From an uncultured Bacteroidales bacterium (lineage in GTDB: Bacteria > Bacteroidota > Bacteroidia > Bacteroidales > Paludibacteraceae), in NCBI GenBank assembly GCA_902780495.1, contig CACZFM010000007.1, forward strand, positions 1 through 64,000: 64,000 bases of DNA, written 5' to 3'. A program made the position numbers and the translations under genes. The notes beneath the pieces were generated by a model, which saw only the letters and a program-made list of their open reading frames with translations, had not been told where the DNA came from and ran no database searches. Shown here one piece after another: positions 1,480 to 62,691 of the stretch (its first letter is position 1; each line of letters starts with the position of its first letter).

Positions 1480-4065
1480 TTATTTCACTTCTGTTCCTGT
1501 GACAGTATAGGCTTTGCCGTCACGGAGGATGTAGAGTCTGCCGTTCTGCATCACTTTGCGGACAGAAGCGGAAGCGTCAGTATTCTTCATCACTTCTTCA
1601 ATGCCTAACGGGGAAGCGGACTGACCTACAATATTAAACTCGCTCCAGTATTGGTCGTTCTCGTACGCATCAACACAATTGTCAGGTACATATACAGGTA
1701 TCTGACGTTTGACATCAAAGAAGGTCTTAGCCTCAATCGTCGGAGGCGTGGTCGAGTTGACAGTAATCTTAGTCATCTTAGCGCAGAGAGCGAAGCAGTT
1801 GTCACCAATTGCCTGAACAGAAGAAGGAACCACCAAATCCTGCAAATATGTACAACCGTAGAATGCGCCATCTCCTATTTCTGTTACGCCTTCCGGAATA
1901 TCCAAGTGCTGCAATTGATGTGCGTTGTAGAAAGCCCAGTTTCCGATGCGCTTGAGTTGGCTGGTTGCCGCAGGAGCGAATGAGCGCCCAGGAGCAGCCA
2001 TGGCGGGGTCGCCTCCAAATGTGATGGTTTCTATACTACGGCAATCCTCAAAGGCACTCTGCTCTATTTCTACCACAGAGGCTGGGATGTCGATGGATTT
2101 CAAGTTCTTGCAACCCGCTACCATCATATAAGTTACTTTCTCAAGAGAAGAAGGCAACAGCAGTTGTTCCAAATTATAATAGTTCTTGAATGCCTCATCT
2201 GCAAACTCAACATTAGAGACTGCAGAAACATCGAGCGATTTAAGCGTTTTGTAAGAACGACCGATAACACCCAATGCATTATCATTCAGTTCACCTTTGT
2301 TAACAACCACAGTTTCCAAATATTTCGGACAGTTAGCCCAGTCTGTTTCCGTTACATTGAAGAATTCTGCTGGAGCTTCTACATATTTGAGGTTCTTAAT
2401 GTTCGTAATAACCCAATTACCAAGGCTTGTCACACTGTTGGAAATGGTGATGCTCGTCAGACCGGTGCAACCAGAGAAAGCATCCCCTCCAATGCTCGTC
2501 ACACTATTGGGAATAGTGATGGATGCAAGTTTGCTCATACCAGAGCAACATGATCCAGGAATGGATTCTACTTCATTGCCAAATACAAATGATTCAACCT
2601 GAGTGCCGAAACATCCGCTATTAGCGCAATTCTTCGCGTTCCATATAACAGATGTCAGACCGGTGCAATCCCGGAAAGCATAGTCTCCAATGCTTGTGAC
2701 ACTGTTACCAATCGTGATACTCGTCAGACCGGTGCAACCAGAGAAAGCATACCTTTCAATGCTTGTCACACTGTTGGGAATGGTGACGCTCGTCAGACCG
2801 GTGCAACCATAGAAAGCCAGTTCTCCAATGCTGGTCACACTGTTGCCAATCGTGATACTTGTCAGACCGGTACAATCCCTGAAAGCATCGGATTCAATGC
2901 TGGTCACACTGTTGGGAATGGTGACACTTGCCAGACTGGTGCAATTACAGAAAGCATAACCAGCAATACTTTCTATTCCATCAGGGATTGTATATGCCCC
3001 CGAATAGGAAGTTGGCATATAAGCAAATACATGTACATTAAAGACAGGACTCGTCAGACCGGTGCAATCCCAGAAAGCATAGTCTCCAATGCTTGTGACA
3101 CTGTTACCAATCGTGATACTCGTCAGACTAGTGCAACCATCGAAAGCATTACTTCCAATGCGGGTCACACTGTTGGGAATCGTGATACTCGTAAGACCGG
3201 TGCAACCATAGAAAGCATAGTTTCCAATGCCGGTCACGCTGTTGGGAAGCGTGATACTCGTCAGACCGGTGCAACCAGAGAAAGCAGAACCTCCAATGCC
3301 GGTCACGCTGTTGGGAATCGTGATACTTGTCAGACCGGTGCAACCAGAGAAAGCAGAACTTCCAATGCCGGTCACGCTGTTGGGAATCGTGATACTTGTA
3401 AGATCGGTGCAACCTTTGAAAGCAGAAGCGACAATACTTTCAATTCCATCAGGGATTGTATATGCCCCCGAATAGGAAGTTGGCATATAAGCAAATACAT
3501 GTACATTAAAGACAGGACTCGTCAGACCAGTGCAACCAGAGAAAGCAGAATTTCCAATGCTCGTCACAGTGTTGGGAATGGTGATAGAGGTTAAACTAGT
3601 GCAACCATCGAAAGCATTACTTCCAATGCGGGTCACACTGTTGGGAATGGTGATACTCGTCAGACCGGTACAACCATAGAAAACCATATATCCAATGCTG
3701 GTCACACTGTTGGGAATCGTGATACTCGTCAGACCGGTGCAACCAGAGAAAGCAGAAATTCCAATGCTGGTCACACTGTTGGGAATGGTGATACTCGTCA
3801 GACCGGTGCAATCATAGAAAGCATACTCTCCAATGCCGGTCACCTTGTATGTGACATTGTCGTACGTAACAGAAGGAGGAATCGTCACGGCACCACTATA
3901 TTCATCTGAATAAAAACCATAAACACGGCCTCTATATGTTACTGATGCCTCCTTTGTGTTGCTGTCGAAATCATACCAGATACCATTTACCCTCGTATCG
4001 GATGCCCACAATGCTCCTACACTTGCTGCAAGCGCAAGGAGGAGGGAAAAGATTTTTGTTTTCAT
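1480..4065 (-). CDS. BspA-like leucine-rich repeat secreted protein with C-terminal tail
   Basis: An 861-residue secreted protein. Residues 1-21 are a signal peptide ([20 protein letters not shown]). About twenty 23-residue LRR_5 units ([17 protein letters not shown]) fill residues ~75-560, followed by more diverged LRRs to ~790. The C-terminus carries the tail [18 protein letters not shown], a type shared with other secreted proteins in this window and probably a sorting signal. Two non-LRR islands ([20 protein letters not shown]), at about 2950-3060 and 3430-3535, are nearly identical at DNA level, showing internal segmental duplication. BspA-family proteins are surface adhesins; the binding partner here is unknown. 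The start lies 12 bp below the stop of the unknown gene 4078-4896, so the two are probably cotranscribed. Confidence 0.9.
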
Positions 4066-4077
4066 TGTTATTGAGTA

Positions 4078-4896
4078 TTAAAAGATTTTTTCATTACCAA
4101 TTTTATCTACAAGAATTCCTTCTTTAAAACCAGCTTCCTCAACTGCCTTTACAATGGATTTCCAATAGCGTTTCATATCCTGTGTATTGTTCATAGGAAT
4201 ATTTTCTAATGACCATCCATAAGATCCGTGTTTAGCCTTTTGACCAAATAGTGCATTGGTATCAAGGAATGGTTTGGCGAATCCTAAATTTGCGGCCTTT
4301 TTAAAATCACATTGAGGCAAACATGGAATAAAACTATAATACTTCTCTTCTGGAGAATATACAACTCCATCTACAAAATCAAATGGAGGATTTATCAAGG
4401 GATCAATTGATGCCAAGCGATACTGGTCGTTTGCAGGAATCCTATGACATGAAATTATTTCTTTTACGACAATAACTGTGTCAAACTCGAATATGGTACC
4501 TGATTGAAATGTACCGAAAATCAAGATATCTCCCTTTTGATATTTAGCTCTTCTTCTGCAGCATATATTACGAAAACATCCATATATGTATGGATCCGTA
4601 TTCAAGGCTTTGGGGGGCATAGATGCTAACAATTGTACTGGCCGCAGATCTGTATGAATAGCCTTCGGCTTTGTTTTTCTTATGATGGTTGCTTGTGAGT
4701 ATGGTTCGTATTCTCCCCAAAAACACAGAGACGAGGACTTCGGAGTTCCATTGTCTAAATACATTCCATCTCGCTGAATAAACTTTCGCCAATGCGAAAT
4801 AGTAGCATTCCATGAAAGATTGTTCACTGAGCCAATAGTCCTTTTGTGATATCCAGGTTCTGCATCTGGATGATTTAATAAAAATAGTCTAGCCAT
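4078..4896 (-). CDS. Hypothetical protein, unrecognised family
   Basis: A 272-residue soluble protein with no signal peptide or membrane segment. I do not recognise the family. The middle (KGDILIFGTFQSGTIFEFDT, residues ~119-138) has the small beta-rich look of PUA/EVE/ASCH-like domains, but that is only an impression. Four cysteines cluster loosely around residues 106-112 (CFRNICCRRR). The C-terminal third (MKRYWKSIVKAVEEAGFKEG) is predicted helical. The gene looks more AT-rich than its neighbours, which suggests acquisition. It ends 12 bp before the BspA-like gene at 4065, in the same direction, so it may be the first gene of a two-gene transcript. The start is ATG at 4896 and no promoter is obvious immediately upstream. 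Confidence 0.6.
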   Translation of the reverse strand: MARLFLLNHPDAEPGYHKRTIGSVNNLSWNATISHWRKFIQRDGMYLDNGTPKSSSLCFWGEYEPYSQATIIRKTKPKAIHTDLRPVQLLASMPPKALNTDPYIYGCFRNICCRRRAKYQKGDILIFGTFQSGTIFEFDTVIVVKEIISCHRIPANDQYRLASIDPLINPPFDFVDGVVYSPEEKYYSFIPCLPQCDFKKAANLGFAKPFLDTNALFGQKAKHGSYGWSLENIPMNNTQDMKRYWKSIVKAVEEAGFKEGILVDKIGNEKIF

Positions 4897-4988
4897 GGTA
4901 TTAAATTTTTAGTTTTGCCTACTCTTTGTCGGATTTTCGGCACACTCCGCGATATGTTTATTTTTTATGGTTTGTGCGTATGTACACA

Positions 4989-5020
4989 CAAAAAGCGTGA
5001 AGTTCATTTGTTCTTCACGC
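4989..5020 (-). terminator. Rho-independent terminator of the candidate small RNA
   Basis: On the minus strand GCGTGAAG (5013-5020) pairs perfectly with CTTCACGC (4995-5002) across a 10-nt loop, followed directly by five T residues. It ends the candidate small RNA and lies ~95 bp before the gene starting at 4896. Confidence 0.7.
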
Positions 5021-5175
5021 ATCTTGAGGGCTTCGCAATCCCTGTAACTAGTAGAAAAACAACCGAAGTCCACGCCCGATATGTATAACCCACCCAACCC
5101 TTTTAGGGGCGTTGGACATAGATATAACACACCACGAGGACATTCATTGTTGCTGCCACGACTAGTTACGAAATG
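4989..5175 (-). ncRNA. Candidate structured small RNA with 3' terminator (6S-like architecture)
   Basis: Read on the minus strand, a perfect 9-bp helix (5161-5169 with 5044-5052, GTAACTAGT/ACTAGTTAC) closes one long imperfect hairpin. Inside it are AACAA/UUGUU, GAA/UUC, GUCC/GGAC and UAUGU/ACAUA pairings. The apex is a CCAAcgCCC/GGGUUGG stem. A rho-independent terminator follows at once (4989-5020). One long rod with internal bubbles plus a terminator is the layout of 6S RNA, but I could not match conserved 6S bases, so identity is a guess. A -7-like box (AAATCTTCG) lies just upstream; the strong promoter at 5310-5340 could also make a longer precursor. The 100-codon ORF across it has no family features. 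Confidence 0.5.
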
Positions 5176-5309
5176 TTGCGAAGATTTCAAGATGTCGCAA
5201 ACAACGTTCAATAAACGCCTTTTATGTACTCACTTTTTTACACTGTTGAGCCCAGTGCCCTCATGTTTAACGTCCGTGAGAGAGGGACGAGAGTGTTTCA
5301 AATTCGCTG

Positions 5310-5340
5310 CAAAGGTAATGCTTTTTTTTGACATAACAAA
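5310..5340 (-). promoter_or_regulatory. Bacteroidota-type promoter
   Basis: On the minus strand a -33 TTTG (5337-5340) is 19 bp from a -7 TACCTTTG (5310-5317), the consensus of the Bacteroidota primary sigma factor. It points towards the candidate small RNA and the gene at 4896. No ORF of useful size lies between. Confidence 0.75.
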
Positions 5341-5369
5341 ATAAATCTGCATTTTCGTGCAGATTTATT
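5340..5369. promoter_or_regulatory. Perfect 12-bp inverted repeat next to promoter
   Basis: AATAAATCTGCA (5340-5351) and TGCAGATTTATT (5358-5369) are perfect arms around a 6-base spacer. The palindrome touches the -33 box of the promoter at 5310-5340, so it could be an operator. It could also be a terminator-like hairpin between the divergent regions, though there is no clear T-run for the minus strand. Confidence 0.5.
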
Positions 5370-5380
5370 GTTAAAGTAGT

Positions 5381-5427
5381 GTTGGACTAGTGAGACTAGT
5401 GGTCTAGTTTGACTAGTAGGACTAGTG
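5381..5427. repeat. Cluster of ACTAGT repeats
   Basis: ACTAGT occurs four times in 47 bp, with a fifth degenerate CTAG-containing unit, in an irregular array (GGACTAGTGAGACTAGTGG and similar). It lies between the palindrome and the minisatellite in a gene-free stretch. No function is evident. Confidence 0.6.
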
Positions 5428-5445
5428 TTTCTGTCCTTTAGCAGG

Positions 5446-5542
5446 CTTTCCTCTGCTTTTCGTTGGCTTAATAACCTAATAATAACCCAATAATAACCCA
5501 ATAATAACCCAATAATAGCCTAATAATTATCCGTGTATTGCT
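5446..5542. repeat. Dispersed intergenic repeat with 11-bp minisatellite (copy 1)
   Basis: A conserved lead (CTCTGCTTTT then GTTGGCTTAATAACC) is followed by five 11-bp units close to AATAACCCAAT (5470-5524) and ends with CGTGTATTGCT at the stop codon of the dipeptidase. The same three-part arrangement recurs at 23375-23470, so this is a dispersed element rather than a simple chance microsatellite. Confidence 0.7.
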
Positions 5543-53288: not shown

Positions 53289-53312
53289 TAATCAGAAAAA
53301 AATCGGAATAAA

Positions 53313-53344
53313 TTTGGTAATATCAAAAAAAAGAATTATCTTTG
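53313..53344 (+). promoter_or_regulatory. Promoter of the first endonuclease I gene
   Basis: Plus-strand TTTG (53313-53316), 20 bp, TATCTTTG (53337-53344), 46 bp before the ATG at 53391. Confidence 0.82.
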
Positions 53345-53390
53345 CAGGCTTTTTAGTTATTATGCTATTACAAACCAAAAAACAAGCGAT

Positions 53391-54362
53391 ATGAAGAAAA
53401 TTTTACTTGTAGTTCTCGCTCTCGGCACCGGCCTTTCGCTGTGGGCGGATGATGATTGTCTGTACCCCACCCTGAACGGCCTGAAAGGCGATGCCATTCT
53501 TGACGAACTGCACGAACTGATTAAAGATCACACTGTGCTCGATTACTTTAGGATACGTGCGGATCAATCGCGCGTGGACGTGGTAGACGGCAAAGTGATT
53601 GACATGTATTCGAACTGCAACTTTAGTGCATCAGACGACTACTGTAAAGATGTGGAAGCGGACGATGACTGCATCTGCTACAACCGCGAACATACGCTTC
53701 CCAAATCTTGGTGGGGACACGACGAGAACAACCCCGAACCGATGTACACCGATTTGTACCACGTTGTACCGACATGTGCTTATGCCAACTATTCGCGCTC
53801 CAACCTTCCGTACGGCGAACTAGACGGCGATGCAGCATGGGAGAACGGTTTCAGCAAAGTGGGCAAGGGAAGTTCGTTGGGCAATATAACTGATGTGTTC
53901 GAACCTAACGCACGCTACAAAGGCGACATCGCGCGCATCTATATGTATATGGTGGCATGCTACCGCGACAAGAATTTCACCAATTATGGAGGTGCTTGGT
54001 TCTTCAAGTACTCCAGCAAAGATACTGCCGCCGACTTCAAGAATAAGAAAGTGAGAGAACTGATGATGAAATGGCACCGCAACGATGCTGTATCGGAGGA
54101 AGAGCGTCGTCGTGCGCAGCGTGTGGCCGCTATACAAGGGAACCACAATCCGTTTGTGGAGTATCCTGAACTGGCAGAATATATCTGGGGTGACAACACA
54201 GAAGACACCTACTACTGCGGCGGCACACCGCTATACGAGGTACAGGAAGACGATGCCGTTCTGGACACCGAGCAGCCGATGTATAACGCTGTGGGTCAGA
54301 AAGTTGATGCGTCGTATCACGGAATTGTTATCCAAAACGGACACAAATTCCTGCTGCAATAA
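53391..54362 (+). CDS. Secreted endonuclease I family nuclease with C-terminal tail (copy 1)
   Basis: 323 residues of the EndA/endonuclease I family (beta-beta-alpha-metal nucleases that cut DNA and often RNA). The signal peptide is KKILLVVLALGTGLSLWA. The active-site motif is ICYNREHTLPKSWWG with the general-base histidine at 101. TDLYHVVPTCAYANYSRSN and GNHNPFVEYPELAEYIWG are further family signatures. The C-terminus reads MYNAVGQKVDASYHGIVI then NGHKFLL, a Prevotella/Bacteroides-type secretion tail. A role in degrading extracellular DNA is inferred. The transporter gene begins 15 bp after its stop. Confidence 0.93.
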   Translation: MKKILLVVLALGTGLSLWADDDCLYPTLNGLKGDAILDELHELIKDHTVLDYFRIRADQSRVDVVDGKVIDMYSNCNFSASDDYCKDVEADDDCICYNREHTLPKSWWGHDENNPEPMYTDLYHVVPTCAYANYSRSNLPYGELDGDAAWENGFSKVGKGSSLGNITDVFEPNARYKGDIARIYMYMVACYRDKNFTNYGGAWFFKYSSKDTAADFKNKKVRELMMKWHRNDAVSEEERRRAQRVAAIQGNHNPFVEYPELAEYIWGDNTEDTYYCGGTPLYEVQEDDAVLDTEQPMYNAVGQKVDASYHGIVIQNGHKFLLQ

Positions 54363-57780: not shown

Positions 57781-57854
57781 ACGGCACGAAAAAGCCTTGC
57801 CAAAAGCATGAAAATAAACTTTTTCAAGAAAAAGTGACCATTTTTGCACTTTTT

Positions 57855-57886
57855 TTTGCTCATGTCAGAAAAAAGATGTAACTTTG
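57855..57886 (+). promoter_or_regulatory. Promoter of mutAB
   Basis: Plus-strand TTTG (57855-57858), 20 bp, TAACTTTG (57879-57886). The mutA ATG at 57962 is 75 bp downstream; the longer frame from 57884 starts inside the -7 box and is not the gene start. Confidence 0.8.
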
Positions 57887-57961
57887 CCGCGAATTATGGG
57901 CATGACCAAAATAATGCCCGAAAGAACAGCTATTATTAAACAACCAAAAATACAAAAAATC

Positions 57962-62636: not shown

Positions 62637-62667
62637 TTGCATATTCGAAAAAAAAGCACTACCTTTG
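62637..62667 (+). promoter_or_regulatory. Promoter of the lipoprotein gene at 62692
   Basis: Plus-strand TTG (62637-62639), 20 bp, TACCTTTG (62660-62667), 24 bp before the ATG. Confidence 0.8.
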
Positions 62668-62691
62668 CAGCCGAATTTCTGACATTCAACG

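Follow-up and report, generated by a model that had tools for sequence, protein, structure and literature searches.

The analysed window comprises 64,000 nucleotides (nt) of contig CACZFM010000007.1 from an uncultured Bacteroidales bacterium of the family Paludibacteraceae (assembly GCA_902780495.1). The interval 4897-5541 of this window is free of genes and contains no credible open reading frame (ORF). Its minus strand carries the candidate regulatory RNA described here, which lies directly ahead of a gene encoding a protein of 272 amino acids (aa). Read on the minus strand, a promoter of the Bacteroidales type is followed by two tandem H-type pseudoknots (5289-5228), a core of approximately 240 nt, a terminator and the gene, which starts 94 nt past the end of the terminator (Table 1). 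A preliminary description of this DNA had postulated a structured RNA with a strong promoter and a terminator, which was borne out by the promoter TTTTG-N19-TACCTTTG, the terminator stem with its U-tract, the stability of the fold (z -5.2) and 95 full-length homologues. Judged from comparative sequence analysis, the RNA probably represents a new class of structured 5' leader, which would terminate transcription conditionally and in cis ahead of diverse accessory genes.

Table 1. Features of the RNA locus and of the presumed transcription unit (window coordinates).
Feature	Position	Strand	Details
Promoter	5310..5341	minus	TTTTG 5341-5337, 19-nt spacer, TACCTTTG 5317-5310; read from sequence
5' module 1, H-type pseudoknot	5258..5289	minus	stem CGUCC/GGACG, loop CUCUCUCAC, linker UUAAACA, 3' strand UGAGGG pairing with the loop; module scan
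5' module 2, H-type pseudoknot	5228..5257	minus	stem CACUG/CAGUG, loop GGCUCAA, linker UAAAAAA, 3' strand GUGAGU; module scan
Conserved core RNA	4990..5231	minus	95 full-length homologues; match of model R1 5231-4978 (window copy is a training member)
P0 hairpin	5203..5219	minus	loop UUUAUUG 5215-5209 pairs with CAAUGAA 5149-5143
P1 5' arm, hypervariable	5187..5194	minus	covariation z up to 28.6; all four Watson-Crick pair types present
H1 hairpin, GAAAU-loop-AUUUC	5170..5188	minus	loop CUUCGCAA 5183-5176, kissing pair with H2 loop
P3 5' arm, hypervariable	5161..5169	minus	GTAACTAGT (5169-5161); covariation z up to 24.8
Switch strand X, inside P3	5054..5077	minus	GGGCGUGGACUUCGGUUGUUUUUC; partners: P4 upstream (GUCC 5141-5138 with GGAC 5071-5068) or terminator 3' arm
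P3 3' arm	5044..5052	minus	ACTAGTTAC (5052-5044); basis as for P3 5' arm
H2 hairpin, GGG-AUUGCGAAG-CCC	5028..5042	minus	loop UUGCGAAG 5038-5031
P1 3' arm	5020..5027	minus	basis as for P1 5' arm
Intrinsic terminator	4990..5020	minus	8-bp stem GCGUGAAG 5020-5013 / CUUCACGC 5002-4995, U-tract 4994-4990
DUF805b motif, cis-regulatory	4916..4950	minus	Rfam RF02914; 38.4 bits versus gathering score 35.6; between terminator and gene
First gene of presumed unit, 272 aa	4078..4896	minus	Pfam, PADLOC: no match
Second gene, 861-aa BspA-type leucine-rich repeat protein	1480..4065	minus	PF13306, E 5.7e-173; 13 nt past first gene

Promoter, U-tract and wobble asymmetry together identify the minus strand as the RNA strand. 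Among 71 pairs in 41 homologues, 371 G-U cells were counted versus 47 A-C cells. The minimum free energy of the minus strand amounted to -109.8 kcal/mol, and none of 100 shuffled sequences was as stable; the plus strand also folds (z -4.1), since an inverted sequence must fold as well. Judging from the promoter position, transcription is expected to start near 5303. A scan for E. coli sigma-70 promoters did not pick up the promoter, a miss that is expected because promoters of Bacteroidales are concerned. The surrounding block 5345-5296, consisting of a hairpin (AATAAATCTGCA...TGCAGATTTATT) and the promoter TTTTG-N19-TACCTTTGCAGC, recurs as near-identical repeats at 7423-7380, 62648-62678, 53312-53347, 44482-44454 and 57850-57895 of the window, and a first look yielded up to 190 candidates in the source genome. 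This block represents a repeated promoter cassette, and its hairpin may terminate the transcript arriving from upstream.

Within the core, helix P1 encloses helix P3 and closes the junction formed by H1, P3 and H2. The 9-bp helix 5044-5052/5161-5169, previously regarded as the closing helix, is present and withstood the covariation check across the 95 homologues (APC z-scores up to 24.8); it is the inner helix P3. Pair-preserving changes were found throughout the variable stems of these homologues. H1 and H2 have complementary loops, which vary together in a cognate-specific manner (z -11.8), as do the P0 loop and the strand preceding P4 (z -5.4, reached by 0/300 shuffles). Two further cognate-specific pairings involve the switch strand X, namely with P4 (z -6.9) and with the 3' arm of the terminator (z -8.1; -16.2 versus -13.3 kcal/mol, 0/200 shuffles). 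Both covary, use the same nucleotides of X and are mutually exclusive. The z-scores of these loop and strand pairings compare cognate with shuffled partners and ignore kinship. In an alignment of 41 diverse members (A2), which was fitted to the covariance model and leans towards it, 91.1% of the cells can pair, 67 of 71 pairs feature double changes, and the covariation score of the whole fold was 0.574, as compared with at most 0.08 for slid partners and 0/500 shuffles. On the level of sequence, the fold, the competing pairings and the terminator, which is near-invariant across the alignment, are established. An antiterminator composed of the P0 5' arm and the U-tract was set aside as near-invariant and hence beyond covariation.

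The pseudoknots at the 5' end are likewise specific: pairing between loop and 3' strand reached -5.09 kcal/mol for cognate versus -2.52 kcal/mol for shuffled partners (0/300; 61 distinct modules). Members of the closest subgroup feature one to three H-type pseudoknots at this position, and distant members possess other 5' structures there. Pseudoknots of the same design were also observed at six sites (L067 7561-, L086 4919+, L097 4640-, L136 2547+, L159 2562- and L163 2863-), where GATCTTTGACATATTG, which recalls a boxA-like sequence, comes next, ahead of a promoter and a small gene of toxin-antitoxin-like type.

To describe the distribution of the RNA, DNA searches, a pattern scan and a covariance model (R1) were used, covering genomes that are almost all metagenome-assembled genomes (MAGs). 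In most of the congeneric genomes, DNA searches revealed copies of 77-86% identity, with several of these genomes harbouring more than one copy. The pattern scan of named genomes returned 81 stretches, all from ruminant-associated Paludibacteraceae or Bacteroidales MAGs, and merging the searches gave the 95 distinct full-length cores. R1 was built from 31 sequences including the window copy, whose own score is therefore high by construction. The model matched 29 of 247 Bacteroidales genomes, representing 25 of 173 genera, and frequently at several copies per genome; these copy numbers are lower bounds, as no more than eight candidates per genome were scored. Outside the family, the best E-value in this order-wide sample was 7.7e-26, E-values of R1 being rough. 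In a class-level sample, matches were confined to Bacteroidales genomes, apart from one weak match of 75 nt. The source genome encodes at least 12 copies: eight were found by the model, two lie on C11 (L071, L075) and one on C6 (L081), and C12 holds a compact copy (L220). Further copies reside on plasmids of the cultured strains Phocaeicola dorei CL06T03C03 and P. vulgatus CL10T00C06, and a plasmid of Bacteroides finegoldii gave a partial match. One plasmid copy occupies approximately 53,935-54,190 of NZ_CP072250.1, ahead of the gene for WP_133300711.1. At L136, tandem RNA copies (2023-2277 and 2287-2518) precede a single gene. In genome G008, contigs break within the apical part of the RNA (both ends of L058, the end of L057, the start of L061), and the breaks share sequence, which suggests a repeated insert in this part.

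No Rfam 15 family covered the core at the gathering score, either in the window or at 20 further loci, with the compact member L202 being searched permissively. The RNA class is uncatalogued in that it is unlisted in Rfam 15; a description of it was not found in the literature searched, which mostly excluded subscription journals. The Rfam comparison proposed in the preliminary description returned no match for 6S RNA or Bacteroidales-1, and neither tmRNA nor another known family matched the locus. The only Rfam match nearby is the DUF805b motif, a 35-nt neighbour separate from the core RNA. Like the RNA described here, DUF805b is found in Bacteroidales within the 5' untranslated regions of varied genes, and the two frequently share a leader; unlike the RNA, it is located downstream of the terminator and also occurs without the core RNA (L219, L225). 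At four of the six above-cut-off DUF805b sites of the source genome, the motif lies between the RNA and its gene, and this stretch is thereby independently marked as a 5' untranslated leader. Other motifs recurring in the gap between RNA and gene were noticed at L031, L101, L128, L130, L134 and further loci (CCAATCCCCGAAGGCGTTAGAGGGG; GTTGCGCCCGACACGGATT; TGGCAGGGTGCATAGGTGTGG...CCACACCTATGCCGCCACGTGA).

The genomic context connects the RNA to the following gene. In 86 of 91 close copies, the next gene has the same orientation as the RNA, at a median of 92 nt past the core; this also holds for 32 of 33 distant copies, with a median of approximately 56 nt. Of 74 copies, 4 have a full Bacteroidales promoter in the gap between RNA and gene, and 37 have one in the 190 nt preceding the RNA. 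How the genes are oriented, and that a second promoter is lacking, are likewise shown by sequence comparison. In the window, the 272-aa and 861-aa genes presumably constitute one operon. The 272-aa gene had no homologue among the 40 relatives searched; a homologue of its product in L143 likewise sits behind a copy of the RNA. Among 86 downstream proteins, approximately 40 unrelated families were distinguished. Many of the proteins are of the BspA type or otherwise secreted; others are outer-membrane barrels, AbiGi, orphan or methyltransferase-like proteins. At L184 and L206, in genomes from two families, short helix-turn-helix (HTH)-like proteins that look alike by eye are encoded just downstream of the RNA; for L206, a later automatic ORF call chose a different frame.

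The stems P1 and P3 change much faster than the remainder of the RNA. Within near-identical subgroups, the mean pairwise difference was 0.50 for P1 and 0.26 for P3 versus 0.034 for the remainder, i.e., approximately 11-fold, and both stems stay complementary despite this divergence between close copies. L101 and L143, located in one genome, differ in both P1 and P3, although the remainder of the two copies is 99% identical. In the L143 copy (2815-2590), a 22-nt deletion between GCAA repeats removed the P3 5' arm, leaving only P1 intact. Such divergence might arise in part through recombination of copies within the conserved H1/H2 segments or through template-switch repair of inverted repeats. 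The arms were rejected as guides to adjoining DNA, since their occurrences within 1.5 kb matched the permuted expectation (32 versus 29.2; 2 versus 1.8). Avoidance of shared 'barcodes' within a genome was not significant either: none of 23 paralogue pairs shares P1 or P3, with about one expected. An IS110 bridge RNA was likewise rejected; no recombinase was seen in the cargo, and the two arms of each variable stem are fully complementary to each other, which bridge-RNA guide loops are not known to be. Speculatively, and with rather low probability, the RNAs might serve as individually addressed leaders of mobile accessory genes, in which P1 and P3 are replaceable 'address' helices, exchanged or diversified faster than the rest, so that each copy answers its own cue or is kept off its paralogues. 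If true, this would represent RNA control of an undescribed kind.

For the conditional terminator considered probable here, the following course is proposed. Transcription would begin at the TACCTTTG promoter, pass through the 5' pseudoknots and the core, and meet the terminator just ahead of the gene. Strand X would pair either upstream with P4 or with the arm preceding the U-tract, and the winning pairing would decide whether the polymerase stops there or continues into the gene. Presumably, the P1/H1/P3/H2 junction with its kissing loops senses a ligand, protein or condition that determines this choice. Transcription, termination efficiency, switching and the assignment of the ON state are what we infer from this architecture. 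As an alternative to 6S RNA, the preliminary description had named a leader that attenuates the gene at 4896, and this option turned out to be the better supported one, given the co-direction of genes, the few promoters in the gap and the two exclusive covarying pairings. These RNAs share three traits with attenuators: they lie on the same strand just upstream of a gene, the gap has no promoter of its own apart from the four exceptions, and one of the two exclusive pairings involves the terminator arm. They also resemble orphan riboswitch or attenuator leaders in combining a conserved junction with variable helices and a terminator facing a competing pairing. They differ from these in the lack of an Rfam match, the tandem pseudoknots in front, the fast P1 and P3 stems, and the missing common pathway that would name a ligand.

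Several observations weigh against the conditional terminator. The cargo variety is unusual for a metabolite riboswitch and argues against a pathway-specific metabolite as the signal. Many copies lack a recognisable promoter of their own and closely follow a co-directional upstream gene, at a distance of a few tens of nt. Where compact members possess no local terminator hairpin (e.g., L202), the U-tract follows the long-range X pairing, and the terminating pairing is ambiguous. Moreover, the neglect of kinship in the shuffles and the dependence of alignment A2 on the model count on the same side.

Among the rival explanations, a mobile or cassette element appears possible but doubtful; here the RNA or its DNA would mark and move accessory genes, and the leader position would be a by-product of cassette joining. 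It would accommodate the diverse accessory cargo, the near-identical copies across species, the plasmid copies, the toxin-antitoxin-like neighbours and the absence of the window's cargo from 40 relatives. Furthermore, L101, L139 and L070 share an upstream gene followed by differing RNA and cargo, the change occurring near the stop codon. Integron cassette arrays are similar in their co-directional accessory genes, toxin-antitoxin-like neighbours and variable inverted-repeat stems. However, no integron integrase (IntI, TIGR02249) exceeded the cut-off in any genome of the genus searched, on which ground attC was rejected, and here the element precedes the gene with an RNA promoter and a terminator. 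Promoter, U-tract and G-U bias indicate a functional RNA, and copies whose competing pairings are intact occur in 25 genera. A search for an empty site found none, as relatives show no synteny at the window locus and orthologues of the 5542-7254 gene are followed by unrelated DNA. A free-standing, trans-acting small RNA that lies ahead of genes by chance is clearly improbable. Its own promoter and terminator would predict a discrete transcript of approximately 315 nt, but the co-direction and short spacing of the following genes contradict chance, and with gap promoters nearly absent most of the cargo would be left without a promoter.

Two known kinds of RNA remain to be weighed. An RNA antitoxin of a type III toxin-antitoxin system is very unlikely, even though promoter, tandem pseudoknots, terminator and gene follow the order known from ToxIN loci. 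The cargo does not represent one toxin family and includes many secreted BspA-type or outer-membrane proteins, a ToxN-like endoribonuclease was not found among the cargo families, and the core is no repeat array. The 6S RNA likeness noted previously is limited to size class and outline, i.e., a long imperfect hairpin with closing helix and terminator, and homology has a next to negligible probability. Neither 6S (RF00013, RF01685) nor 6S-Flavo nor Bacteroidales-1 matched the window at E-values up to 10, the former also not at the gathering score; a 6S-Flavo search of the source genome gave no match, but neither did its controls, so that it has no bearing on 6S elsewhere. Sequence, copy number (at least 12, always directly ahead of or beside genes) and fold also differ, the latter combining a four-way junction, kissing loops and a pseudoknot in place of a single open bubble.

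If the proposed conditional terminator is right, Bacteroidales, which are major gut and rumen bacteria, would carry a multi-copy class of regulatory RNA absent from Rfam. This RNA would front genes for surface proteins, orphan genes and genes reminiscent of phage resistance, namely an AbiGi homologue and methyltransferases, and would provide a handle on how accessory genes are silenced or switched on. It would also constitute a new orphan switch, and cultured strains such as P. dorei CL06T03C03 and P. vulgatus CL10T00C06 would allow its ligand or protein partner to be looked for. Finally, the fast-changing yet always paired stems P1 and P3 raise the question of how RNA helices diversify.
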